Of a DNA stretch of 64,000 nt, positions 6,700 through 30,760 are shown piece by piece. Position 1 is the stretch's first letter, and each line of letters opens with the position of its first letter. The notes under the pieces were generated by a model. That model did no database searches and was not told the DNA's origin. It worked only from the letters and a program-made list of their open reading frames with translations. Source of the DNA: Chelatococcus sp. HY11. Lineage in GTDB: Bacteria > Pseudomonadota > Alphaproteobacteria > Rhizobiales > Beijerinckiaceae. Made by a program: the position numbers and the translations under genes. Location: assembly GCF_018398335.1 (NCBI RefSeq), contig NZ_JAHBRX010000001.1, forward strand, positions 1,798,001 to 1,862,000, given 5' to 3'.

Positions 6700-7018
6700 T
6701 GCACGGCTCCTTCTCGGTATCGCATCGCGACCATCGGCCTGGACCGGCTTCCCGTGGGGCCCGTGGGGGGTCCGCAGGACGACGGCCAAAGTATCAAGAT
6801 CCGTAAGTTTAGACGCCAGGTCGGACGCGCGATGTCAGGTCAGAGAGATAGAACAGCGACAGATCTTGCTTCAACCGGTGCCGTTCTACCACAGACCACG
6901 CTGCTGGTCAGCGCAATCGACGGCGATGTCTCAAGATGCTTAATGTCGCGATCCCCGTGGCTCCGTCACACGTCAAGTGTGGCGGAGGGGGCGGTTCTCA
7001 CATACCGCGGACGGGGTT
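6700..7018. other. 319-bp intergenic region upstream of dps
   Basis: This gap holds the dps promoter, which I cannot place exactly, and the 3' end of the LOG gene unit. An imperfect hairpin, CTCCGTCACAC / GTGTGGCGGAG at 6961-6987, could mark the end of the minus-strand LOG transcript, though no U-tract follows. No gene is convincing here. Confidence 0.4.
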
Positions 7019-7837
7019 TCAGCCTTGTCGCGCCGCGGTCACGACATTCAGCCCGAGCCGCAGCAGCTCGGACCAAGTCGCCTCCGCCGTGTCCGCAAAG
7101 CCGAACAGCTCGCAGTCAGCAGCACTGATCATGCCCTCGTCCACCATCGCCTGGAAATTGATGACGGACGTCCAGTAAGCCTTGTCGTACAGGACGATTG
7201 GCACCGGGGGCGCCTTGTGCGTCTGCCGCAATGTCAGGATCTCGAAGAGTTCGTCGAACGTGCCGAAGCCGCCGGGAAAAACAACGAGGCCGTTGGCGCG
7301 CATCGCCAGATGCATCTTGCGCATCGCAAAATAGTGGAAGCGGAAGGTCAGATCCGGTGTCGAATAGGCATTCGGCTCCTGCTCATGCGGCAGGGTGATG
7401 TTGAAGCCGATCGAGGGGGCACCGGCGTCAAGGGCGCCGCGATTGGCGGCCTCCATGATGCCGGGGCCGCCACCGGTGGCGATGACATTGTCGCGCTCAT
7501 TATCATTGGGGCAAAGCGCGCCGCCGCGCTCGGACGCGATCCTTCCGAATTCACGCGCCGCGGCATACCAGTCGGCATGGCGCCCGCCGCCATTCTCGCC
7601 CACGCGTGCGCTGCCGAAGACGACGATCGTCGAGCGGACGCCCCAAGCGCGCAGCGCTTCCTCCGCCTTTGCGTATTCCAGGAGGAAGCGCACCCCGCGC
7701 ATGGAATCGCCGAGCAGGAAATCCTGATCCAGCGCGGGAAGGCGGTAGGAGGGCGAAGCGGACTGAGCCGCATTGGGAGCGGCGGGAACGGTCGTTGCGC
7801 GGGTGGGCGTGGACGGTGAAGCAGCCATGATATCCAA
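7019..7837 (-). CDS. LOG-family protein (TIGR00730-like, cytokinin riboside phosphoribohydrolase fold)
   Basis: This 272-residue Rossmann-fold protein has the lysine-decarboxylase-like/LOG signature PGGFGTFDELFEILTLRQTHK (about residues 190-210) and the nucleotide-binding ATGGGPGIMEAANRGALDAG (about 120-140). Small LOG proteins release nucleobase from nucleoside 5'-monophosphate; this is a longer version with a 30-residue Ala/Pro/Thr-rich N-terminus and a helix RGVRFLLEYAKAEEALRAW before the core. Its exact substrate is not predictable. ATG 7837 and ATG 7828 are both plausible starts. It begins only 3-4 bp downstream of the GNAT gene, so the two are very likely one operon. Confidence 0.88.
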   Translation of the reverse strand: MDIMAASPSTPTRATTVPAAPNAAQSASPSYRLPALDQDFLLGDSMRGVRFLLEYAKAEEALRAWGVRSTIVVFGSARVGENGGGRHADWYAAAREFGRIASERGGALCPNDNERDNVIATGGGPGIMEAANRGALDAGAPSIGFNITLPHEQEPNAYSTPDLTFRFHYFAMRKMHLAMRANGLVVFPGGFGTFDELFEILTLRQTHKAPPVPIVLYDKAYWTSVINFQAMVDEGMISAADCELFGFADTAEATWSELLRLGLNVVTAARQG

Positions 7838-24363: not shown

Positions 24364-27237
<2,874 letters not shown>

Positions 27238-27382
27238 CAATAACACCTCGGGCGCAGGGTCAGGCGGCTCAGAATGGCGGACCCGGAAGGACCTCGCGCC
27301 TCAGGAAGCAAATCATGGACCGGAGATCACCGGGATCTCGCCGGACCATGGCTTACCGCCTTCGGCCTCGCGGCCTCCGTGG

Positions 27383-27560
27383 TGCCCCATCTGTTTCTTT
27401 GCCTGAGAGCGTTATCCCGTCGGCGGATGCACGAAGCGCTGGGCTCCGGGCCTCTCTTTCCAGATGTAGTCGCGCGGCAGCGGTCCTTTTGCCTGAGAGA
27501 TTCCGGGGCGGTTGCTCCTTCGGCGCTCGACCCAAAGGCCGAGTCTCTCCCGCTGCTGCC
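27383..27560 (-). promoter_or_regulatory. Tandem glycine riboswitch upstream of gcvP
   Basis: Read on the minus strand, aptamer 1 (about 27555-27485) has GGAGAG, then CGCCGAAGGAGCAACCG, then CTCTCAGGCAAAAGGACCG. Aptamer 2 (about 27462-27385) has GAGAG, then CGCCGACGGGATAACG, then CTCTCAGGCAAAGAAACAG. These are the conserved cores of the glycine aptamer, twice in tandem with a short linker. The 3' end lies about 145 nt before the gcvP start codon; I see no strong terminator in the expression platform. The 5' end lies only about 30 bp from the fbpB stop codon. Confidence 0.92.
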
Positions 27561-27590
27561 GGCTGCAAGCTACTCAAAACAGCCAGGAAG

Positions 27591-29387
27591 TCAAAAGCCA
27601 GGTTGGCGCCCGGCGGACAAGTCCCCATCAATATCGTCGGCACGACCCGATGTCGCACGGCGCGACCGCACAAAGCCATGACGGCTGAGCCGTGCCAGCC
27701 ACACCACCGGAAGGAAGCCGACAAGGACAATGAGAAGGGCCGCAATCGCCCCATCCTCATAGGTACCGCGTGAGGCCTCCGCGTAGAGCTGGGTTGCGAG
27801 CGTCTCAAAGTCAAGCGGCCGCAGCAACAGGGTGGCTGGCAGCTCCTTCATGCAATCGACGAAAATGAGAATGGCGGCGGAGGCGATCGCCGGCCACAGA
27901 AGCGGCAGATGAATGCGCCTGATCAGCCCGCCGGAATGGGCGCCAAGCGTTCGCGCCGCATCATCGAGGGTGAGCGGCACTTTCGCGAGCCCCGCCTCCA
28001 GTCCACCCACAGCGAGAGCGAGAAAGCGCGCGGCATAGGCATAGATCAGGGCAACGACCGTTCCCGAAAGGATCAGTCCCGTCGAAATGCCGAAGCTCGC
28101 GCGCAAAGCCGCGTCGATCGTGTTGTCGATGGTGGCGAGGGGCACCATCAGGCCGATGGCGAGGACGGTACCGGGCACCGCGTAGCCTAGGCTTGCGACC
28201 CGCGCCGCCAGCCCGGCGCGCCGCACGTCACTCGGGCTGCGGTGGGCGGCGAGCCGCAGCGCGACAATCACACAGGCGCCGAGCGCGAGTGTCACGGCGG
28301 TCGCGACGAGCGCGAGGGAGGCGGTATTGCGGATCGCATCCACGAGGCTGTGCGAGAAGCCAGCGAAACGCAGGCGCTTGTAGGCCTCGTTGCACAGGTG
28401 CAGCACGGGAACGACGAAGCCGACGAGGACCGGCAGCGCGGCGATGGACATCGCGGCCATGGCGGCCCACCCCGTGAGCTGCTTTGGCTTGAGCCTCCCG
28501 GGCTCGGCATCGGCGTAGTCGGCGTGCCGGCGAACGATGCGCTCGATCACGACGAGGGTGATGACGACGGCGAGCATGAACAATGCGATCTGCGCCGCGC
28601 CGGCGAGGCTCGAGCGGTTGATCCAGGTCGCGTAGATTGACACCGTCAGCGTTCTGACGCCGAGAAATTCCGACGCACCGATATCGTTCAGGGTTTCAAG
28701 GAGAGCAAGCGTGGCTCCCGCCACGATCGCCGGACGGGCCAGGGGGACCGCGATGGACAGGAAGGTTCGGAAACGTCCCGCACCGAGGGAATGCGAAGCC
28801 TCGACCACCCCGCCGGCCTGCACGAGGAAGGTCGCCCGTACCGAGGCATAGACATAGGGGTAGAGAACGAAGCTGAGGAGAATGATGCATCCGCCCATCG
28901 AGCGAACGTCGGGAAAGCTCAGATCGCGCGGGTTGGTGATCCCAAGCACCGTGCGCAGGACGCTCTGCACGGGGCCGATGGGGTGCAGCACGTCGAGATA
29001 GACATAGGCGACAATATAGGTCGGCATCGCGAGCGGCAGCAGCAGTGCCCATTCCAGCAAGCGGCGGCCGGGAAAATCATACGCGACGACGAGCCACGCG
29101 AGGCACGTTCCCATGACGATGACGAGGATACCGACCCCCGTCACCAGCATGGCCGTCTGGCGAATGGCCTCAGGCAAGACATAAGCAACAAGATGTGGCC
29201 AGACGCTCTCCGCCGCGCCGCCGGCAACCGCCACGATGGCAAGGATCGGGGCCAGCGCGACAAGAGCGACAGCCATCCCCGCGAAAAGCCAGCCGCGCCC
29301 GTGCGGCCCGCGCGTGCCGGCACGCGCCGCTGCCCGGCCGTATGTCACGCCGGTCCGATTGGTAGGTGCGGAAGACCCGATAAACAT
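27591..29387 (-). CDS. fbpB: Iron(III) ABC transporter permease, fused double-domain FbpB type
   Basis: This 598-residue membrane protein contains two tandem binding-protein-dependent permease domains, as in FbpB/SfuB/AfuB. Each has its EAA-type cytoplasmic loop: VVEASHSLGAGRFRTFLSIAVPLARPAI around residues 198-225, and LDDAARTLGAHSGGLIRRIHLPLLWPAIASA around 475-505. LETLNDIGASEFLGVRTLT and MKELPATLLLRPLDFETLATQLY are blocks typical of ferric-iron permeases. The first 30 residues are a basic cytoplasmic stretch. It follows fbpA on the same strand with a 100-bp gap. No ATP-binding subunit (fbpC) is adjacent, so it must be supplied from elsewhere. Confidence 0.9.
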   Translation of the reverse strand: MFIGSSAPTNRTGVTYGRAAARAGTRGPHGRGWLFAGMAVALVALAPILAIVAVAGGAAESVWPHLVAYVLPEAIRQTAMLVTGVGILVIVMGTCLAWLVVAYDFPGRRLLEWALLLPLAMPTYIVAYVYLDVLHPIGPVQSVLRTVLGITNPRDLSFPDVRSMGGCIILLSFVLYPYVYASVRATFLVQAGGVVEASHSLGAGRFRTFLSIAVPLARPAIVAGATLALLETLNDIGASEFLGVRTLTVSIYATWINRSSLAGAAQIALFMLAVVITLVVIERIVRRHADYADAEPGRLKPKQLTGWAAMAAMSIAALPVLVGFVVPVLHLCNEAYKRLRFAGFSHSLVDAIRNTASLALVATAVTLALGACVIVALRLAAHRSPSDVRRAGLAARVASLGYAVPGTVLAIGLMVPLATIDNTIDAALRASFGISTGLILSGTVVALIYAYAARFLALAVGGLEAGLAKVPLTLDDAARTLGAHSGGLIRRIHLPLLWPAIASAAILIFVDCMKELPATLLLRPLDFETLATQLYAEASRGTYEDGAIAALLIVLVGFLPVVWLARLSRHGFVRSRRATSGRADDIDGDLSAGRQPGF

Positions 29388-29455
29388 TCAGAGGGCTCTG
29401 ATACAGCACGAAGCCGCAGCCCTTGCGCAGGGCCGCGGCTTGAACATGGCGCGGC

Positions 29456-29477
29456 TCCCTCCCCGCAACAGGGAGGG
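29456..29477. repeat. Palindrome in the fbpA-fbpB gap
   Basis: CCCTCCCC and GGGAGGGG flank GCAACA, giving an 8-bp stem. It lies between the two genes of the iron transporter and could attenuate expression of the permease relative to the abundant binding protein. It resembles the CTCTCCCCG family found elsewhere in the window. Confidence 0.6.
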
Positions 29478-29488
29478 GCGCGTCACGA

Positions 29489-30526
29489 TCAGTTATCGAA
29501 GCCGACCTTGTCGGCGAGTTCGCTGGCGGCCTTGCGGTTCTTGCCGATGGCGGTGAGCTCGGCCGGATCGATCTTGAGCTCGCCGAAACTGGCGATGATC
29601 GGATCCGCCTTCACACCGGCCTTGACCGGGTACTCGAAGTTCGCCTTGGCATAGAGCTCCTGCGCGTCATCCGACGCCAGGAATTCGATGAGCTTCACGG
29701 CGTTGGCCGCATGCGGGGCGTTCTTGGCGACAGCCGCGCCGGACACGTTCACATGCGTGCCGCCCTTCTCGAAGGTCGGCAGGATGACGTTGATGGCTTC
29801 GCCCCACTTGACCTGGTCCGGCCCGCCGGCGCCCGAGCGCATCAGGCCGACATAATAAGAATTGGCGAGGCCCACATCACAGATGCCGCCGAGAATATCG
29901 CGTGCGACATCACGATCGCCGCCGCCGGCCTTGCGCGCGAGATTGGCCTTCACACCTTTCAACCATTCCTCAGTCTTCGCCGCGCCGTCCTTGGCGATCA
30001 TGTTGGCGATGAGAGCCGTGTTATAGGGATGCTGACCGGCGCGGATGCAAACCTTGCCCTTCCACTTGGGATCGGCCAGGTCCTCATAGGTGAACGACTT
30101 GAGATCCGTGCGATCCTTGGAGGCATAAAGCACGCGCGCGCGCGTCGACAGCGCGAACCAGCGGCCATCCGCGTCACGCAGATTGGCGGGGATCGCCGCA
30201 TTCAGCGCGTCAGACTTCACGGGCTGCACGACGCCCTTGTCGACGAGATCGATGAGATTGCCGAAATCGACCGTCATCAGGACGTCGGCCGGTGAGTTCG
30301 CGCCTTCAGTCGCCACGCGCTCAGCAAGGCCGTCCTTGACGAACAGCGTCTTGACCTGGATCCCGCTCTTCTCAGTGAAGGCGTCGAGCAGCGGCTTGAT
30401 CAGGCCGGGCTCACGGGTCGTGTAGAGCGTTACTTCTTCCGCAGCCGAAGCCGCCGTGGAGAAGCCTGCGGAAAGACCTGCAATGCCGGCGAGGCAAGCA
30501 ATCCTGGCGATCCGATTGATGGACAT
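29489..30526 (-). CDS. fbpA: Iron(III) ABC transporter periplasmic substrate-binding protein
   Basis: This 345-residue exported protein has a cleavable signal peptide (MSINRIARIACLAGIAGLSA, cut after ASAAEE-like residues). Class II extracellular solute-binding features of FbpA/FutA follow: EVTLYTTREPGLIKPLLDAF, VLMTVDFGNLIDL, and the adjacent tyrosines of ANSYYVGLMRSG (about residue 245), which ligate ferric iron in this family. The start at 30526 is fixed by a GGAGGAG ribosome site; an in-frame start at 30580 would place 18 polar residues before the signal peptide. It is the first gene of an fbpA-fbpB unit, with an Irr-type box 218 bp upstream. Confidence 0.93.
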   Translation of the reverse strand: MSINRIARIACLAGIAGLSAGFSTAASAAEEVTLYTTREPGLIKPLLDAFTEKSGIQVKTLFVKDGLAERVATEGANSPADVLMTVDFGNLIDLVDKGVVQPVKSDALNAAIPANLRDADGRWFALSTRARVLYASKDRTDLKSFTYEDLADPKWKGKVCIRAGQHPYNTALIANMIAKDGAAKTEEWLKGVKANLARKAGGGDRDVARDILGGICDVGLANSYYVGLMRSGAGGPDQVKWGEAINVILPTFEKGGTHVNVSGAAVAKNAPHAANAVKLIEFLASDDAQELYAKANFEYPVKAGVKADPIIASFGELKIDPAELTAIGKNRKAASELADKVGFDN

Positions 30527-30743: not shown

Positions 30744-30760
30744 TTTAGATAAATTCTAAA
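30744..30760 (-). promoter_or_regulatory. Irr-type iron control element (ICE motif)
   Basis: TTTAGATAAATTCTAAA is a 17-bp inverted repeat with 6-bp arms (TTTAGA / TCTAAA). It differs at one position from the rhizobial ICE consensus TTTAGAA-N3-TTCTAAA bound by Irr. It lies 218 bp upstream of fbpA, an iron(III)-binding protein gene, which supports the reading. Irr can repress or activate depending on site position; the distance here allows activation. Confidence 0.7.

Follow-up and report, generated by a model that had tools for sequence, protein, structure and literature searches.

Glycine riboswitches at glycine cleavage genes

The gcvTHP riboswitch of the Hyphomicrobiales (Bradyrhizobium, Afipia, Xanthobacteraceae) lies before gcvT and in most cases has a TTGACA box upstream. 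The riboswitch described here, located in a stretch of 64,000 nucleotides of Chelatococcus sp. HY11 (the window), resembles it in its two aptamers, in the short P3b of aptamer 2 and in a similar spacing, but gcvT and gcvH are missing between the riboswitch and gcvP. According to PMC13104608, which cites Tezuka and Ohnishi (2014), the gcvTH operon and the gcvP of Streptomyces griseus stand apart, each controlled by a glycine riboswitch of its own, and a division of this kind is already known. The window shares with S. griseus, as described there, the split gcvTH and gcvP loci and the riboswitch on both; S. griseus, however, is actinobacterial, and a pattern search of the Streptomyces and Nocardiopsis gcvP loci that we examined showed a single aptamer core in each. 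The gcvT riboswitch of Neisseria gonorrhoeae is likewise tandem, with gcvP elsewhere. There, according to the same source, it acts as a translational ON switch on gcvT/gcvH and gcvP gives no robust glycine response, whereas the gcvP of the window has a riboswitch of its own.

In Pseudomonadota, 98% of the riboswitch-controlled glycine cleavage systems include gcvT and gcvH, as reported in PMC12452182, so that a riboswitch on gcvP alone is, on that figure, uncommon in this group. Among the papers listed in our literature search, none dealt with the replacement of gcvPA/gcvPB by a riboswitch-gcvP unit. The window locus is a real, slightly unusual case of interesting origin, and we consider it quite probable that it is a self-contained riboswitch-gcvP transcription unit, derived from a Bradyrhizobium-like gcvTHP operon and replacing gcvPA/gcvPB.

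A tandem glycine riboswitch ahead of a lone gcvP

Aptamer 1 (27471-27562, minus strand) matched the full RF00504 model, positions 1-94, with 70.4 bits (E 1.2e-12), and aptamer 2 (27381-27473, minus strand) matched it with 37.9 bits in a whole-genome search, or with 32.4 bits when scanned alone from 27472 down; both reach the RF00504 gathering score of 32 bits. A 3-nt overlap with aptamer 1 kept aptamer 2 from showing in the window scan, the two abutting head to tail at 27471-27473 with gcvP as the next gene. The tandem riboswitch ahead of the lone gcvP, which an earlier sequence-only reading had recognised on this strand, is thus confirmed at the level of sequence by the covariance-model search, a check named beforehand as able to refute it; the same reading had placed the aptamer about 30 bp from the stop codon of the preceding gene, fbpB, and the computed gap is 28 nt (27563-27590). 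In an alignment of four genomes of the genus, aptamer 1 is invariant at 81 of 89 columns (27562-27474) and aptamer 2, whose P3b is short and of the CCGACGGGATAA type, at 71 of 93.

The gene that follows, gcvP (24364-27237, minus strand), encodes a single-chain glycine dehydrogenase (NCBIfam TIGR00461 equivalog, 1451 bits against a cut-off of 859), the sole GcvP in its genome. Its open reading frame extends from a GTG at 27246, and the likely start is the ATG at 27237, with an SD-like GAGG at 27246-27249. The absence of gcvT and gcvH beside gcvP, also remarked on in the earlier reading together with the suggestion to look for them and for a second riboswitch, was borne out: both genes lie about 290 kb away (G000:C1:2115797-2117287), preceded by a tandem glycine riboswitch of their own, of which aptamer 1 scored 56.4 bits and aptamer 2 was read by eye. 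The locus consists of a riboswitch directly before gcvP, with gcvTH elsewhere under another one. All four genomes examined of the genus carry both riboswitches, the one before gcvP and the one before gcvT, and share the gene order fbpA-fbpB-riboswitch-gcvP.

Two further observations were made in these genomes. The gcvT leader contains, after aptamer 2 and 34 nt before gcvT, a 15-codon open reading frame, M(D/E)PVS(V/I)GTGCPFGQL (L084:7674-7721, equal to G000:C1:2115673-2115720, plus strand), which has three Gly codons, is found in all four genomes and varies among them only by synonymous or conservative changes. A third tandem glycine riboswitch is present in two of the four, the sister genomes G001 and G003 (L113, about 7106-7309, and L114, about 6793-6986, both minus strand); it precedes what we take to be a DadA-like FAD oxidoreductase, near presumably kbl-like and tdh-like genes, all named from their sequences.

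A candidate promoter at the end of fbpB

The sequence-only reading had offered two possibilities for the transcription of gcvP, a promoter inside fbpB or else read-through from the iron genes. This choice was not supported in that form: a candidate -35 box TTGACT (27589-27594, minus strand) overlaps the fbpB stop codon (27591-27593) and a candidate -10 box TAGCTT (27567-27572, minus strand) lies, after a 16-nt spacer, inside the 28-nt gap. The two boxes, which form a block TTGACT-N16-TAGCTT spanning 27594-27567, are invariant in all four genomes of the genus, and the gap as a whole is invariant at 26 of its 28 columns, whereas in the same four-genome alignment the stretch of fbpB before it is invariant at 44 of 81 third positions and the leader at 27342-27285 at 22 of 58 columns. 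The -10 candidate is weak, with three of six matches to TATAAT (the promoter and -10 motifs being those that we take to apply), and a strict scan of 27200-27900 for consensus sigma-70 promoters returned none, which leaves conservation and comparison as the basis of the promoter claim. In all four genomes TTGACA-N16-TATGAC stands upstream of the gcvT riboswitch. A TTGAC was found no more than 80 nt upstream of 32 of the 42 riboswitches extracted, compared with 2.3 expected from the local background; the 42 sequences are related, and the excess does not amount to 32 independent events. This set came from a riboswitch pattern that recovered 38 of the 65 loci tried, to which five were added before one duplicate was dropped. 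Judging from these sequences, the gcvP unit most likely has its own promoter.

Synonymous-site conservation along fbpB was also tried as promoter evidence. It was raised over the last ~125 codons (0.48-0.55, compared with 0.38 overall) without a clear peak at the end, and for this reason it was left out.

The iron uptake genes and the Irr-type box

The gene upstream of the riboswitch, fbpB (27591-29387, minus strand), encodes a ferric iron ABC permease with two stretches of Pfam BPD_transp_1. No NCBIfam equivalog exceeded its cut-off for this protein, which owes its name to its neighbour FbpA (29489-30526, minus strand), a ferric iron-binding protein of convincing identity, closest in the PDB comparison to solved ferric-binding proteins (1y9u, E 6.7e-141; 1q35 FbpA, E 3.6e-87). 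Directly behind fbpA and fbpB (27591-30526) we noticed no fbpC, the gene of the ATPase, and the set of transporter genes appears incomplete here.

An Irr element at 30744 had been pointed out in the earlier reading, and an Irr-type box, TTTAGAATTTATCTAAA, does lie upstream of fbpA at 30744-30760 (no strand assigned), with one mismatch to what we take to be the consensus, TTTAGAAnnnTTCTAAA; a box of the form TTTAGAAnnnATCTAAA is found before fbpA in all four genomes of the genus. Two of the four Fur-family proteins in the genome look like Irr, by a motif that we presume to be diagnostic. The combination of a box at the promoter and an Irr-like protein in the genome was found for fbpA only, and between the Irr box and gcvP we found no tie except adjacency. 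The Irr-type box belongs to fbpA.

The earlier reading had gone further and suggested that read-through would link glycine cleavage to iron status. If so, the fbpA promoter, controlled by Irr, would be the main source of the gcvP transcript, with the riboswitch gating that transcript. Such an arrangement would fit the shared strand, the 28-nt gap, the lack of a strong terminator, the Irr-type box and gene order kept throughout the genus and the two Irr-like Fur proteins, but we judge it improbable, as it is opposed by the invariant promoter candidate at the gap, by related stand-alone cassettes that occur without fbp genes and with a divergent upstream gene (see below), and by a terminator-like hairpin near the 3' end of fbpB. 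This hairpin (27597-27614, minus strand) lies within the coding sequence of fbpB, is followed by TTTT and is weak (-8.8 to -10.4 kcal/mol), and it is present in all four genomes; the terminator scan gave two sites on both strands, compared with 0.6 expected in shuffles. With a likely promoter of their own for switch and gcvP, the iron uptake genes fbpAB are probably bystander neighbours and not regulators of gcvP.

Stand-alone riboswitch-gcvP units in other genomes

We scanned 80 named loci around relatives of GcvP upstream with a riboswitch-core pattern, and a riboswitch-like core was present in 48. At 44 of these it lies 1.3-2.0 kb from gcvP, which leaves room for gcvT and gcvH; at the other four, an Acidobacteriaceae MAG, two Streptomyces and one Nocardiopsis, it is within 300 nt of gcvP. 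Within the window's own family, 298 genomes were searched at the DNA level, which led to two more cases, G234 and G216, both of another genus. In these the riboswitch immediately precedes the gene for a GcvP that shares 73-75% identity with that of the window. Only these two of the 17 genomes of their genus have a single-chain GcvP, the other 15 giving split-type matches. In G234 and G216 the upstream gene is divergent and the 10 kb that we inspected showed no fbp genes, and the riboswitch-gcvP of the Acidobacteriaceae MAG also has a divergent upstream gene; with such neighbours there can be no read-through in these three genomes, and an own promoter is required.

Ancestry of GcvP and of the riboswitch

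GcvP matches were obtained in 48 of 60 sampled genomes of the family. By a manual count of the table, 42 of the 48 gave matches of the split, two-subunit GcvPA/PB type (one of them, G027, also has a full-length GcvP), five gave full-length GcvP alone and one nothing but weak matches. For phylogeny, rows were chosen by hand from 84 pattern-extracted sequences to give trees of 45 and 31 rows, with G234 and G216 added to the latter; G027 was not among the extracted sequences, and neither tree includes L037. The GcvP of the window genus falls together with those of Nitrobacteraceae and of the Acidobacteriaceae MAG in the 45-row tree (86 and 94 SH-aLRT) and again in the 31-row tree (91/93, for the group as a whole), while the GcvP of G234 and G216 is sister to that of Nitrobacteraceae (100/99, 31-row tree). 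A single GcvP clade of the window genus with G234 and G216 was rejected (p-AU 0.007), which makes at least two acquisitions likely. It is thus likely, as far as the trees indicate, that the window genus and the second genus of the family acquired riboswitch-gcvP separately.

A different case was observed in G011 (L177), of another genus of the family, whose riboswitch and GcvP are Methylobacterium-like with 100/100 in both the GcvP and the riboswitch trees. Its riboswitch and gcvP lie in a gcvT-containing operon, apparently a separate transfer of a whole operon.

The riboswitch could instead be a local duplicate of the gcvT riboswitch of the genus, set before an acquired gcvP. Both are of the same RNA class and occur in one cell, and a clade of all family riboswitches was not rejected (p-AU 0.29). 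Nevertheless, we regard local duplication as very unlikely, because the gcvP and gcvT riboswitches of the genus as one clade were rejected in two tests (p-AU 0.013 and 0.019) and because the P3b of aptamer 2 is short in the gcvP riboswitch, matching the Bradyrhizobium/Hyphomicrobiales type, and long in the gcvT riboswitch. The riboswitch tree, which has 40 rows (the 42 sequences less four long-branch rows, plus two added), was considered as sole proof of transfer and dropped in that role, given the family origin at p-AU 0.29; for the same reason the riboswitch backs transfer less firmly than GcvP does.

The leader of gcvP and the mode of control

Behind aptamer 2 lies a short open reading frame of 26 codons (27269-27349, minus strand) with an SD-like AAGGCGGT at 27355-27362. 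The columns from the end of aptamer 2 to its ATG (27343-27380) are invariant at 33 of 38 positions in the four genomes of the genus and the next 58 columns (27342-27285) at 22. The SD-like box and ATG (27347-27362) sit where gcvT begins in L037 and may, from this placement, be what remains of the start of a gcvT that was lost. The riboswitch might then act first on this frame, with its translation coupled to gcvP, a scheme that agrees with the position of the box and ATG and with their strong conservation over that of the following 58 columns. We think it unlikely nonetheless, since the peptide is unconserved, its length is 26 or 11 codons among the four genomes, the frame ends 30-75 nt before gcvP, and its ATG stays paired in the folds whether the aptamers are free or forced.

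When the aptamers were left free in folding, the SD of gcvP paired with the core of aptamer 2 with a probability of about 0.6-0.99 in the window, G002 and G003, and not in G001. Forcing both aptamers cost 9-19 kcal/mol, freed the gcvP SD in none of the four genomes and opened the gcvP ATG in three. These folds are ambiguous and give no clean switch, so that the mechanism is one that we infer. Tandem glycine riboswitches on glycine cleavage genes are ON switches according to PMC13104608 and PMC6944388, and by analogy the gcvP riboswitch is likely an ON switch.

A proposed riboswitch-gcvP unit and its meaning

We propose that transcription would start near 27562, at the base of aptamer 1, from a housekeeping promoter that spans the stop codon of fbpB, and that glycine on both aptamers would raise gcvP expression, probably at translation, in a response running parallel to that of the gcvTH operon under its own riboswitch. 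The self-contained unit would go back to a riboswitch-gcvTHP operon of Hyphomicrobiales type (Bradyrhizobium-like) from which gcvT and gcvH disappeared, and the acquired unit would have displaced the gcvPA/gcvPB pair usual in the family. The link between iron and glycine, attractive but unsupported, is thereby removed.

More broadly, we see about an even chance that riboswitch and single-chain gcvP constitute a transferable unit repeatedly displacing native gcvPA/gcvPB, which would leave one complex (P with T and H) under two glycine riboswitches of different ancestry; the two acquisitions, likely separate, in a single alphaproteobacterial family (the one-clade rejection given above) fit this reading. 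A regulatory RNA would apparently have moved together with a single enzyme gene and replaced a differently built native enzyme, and two sensor copies of different ancestry would tune the parts of one complex.
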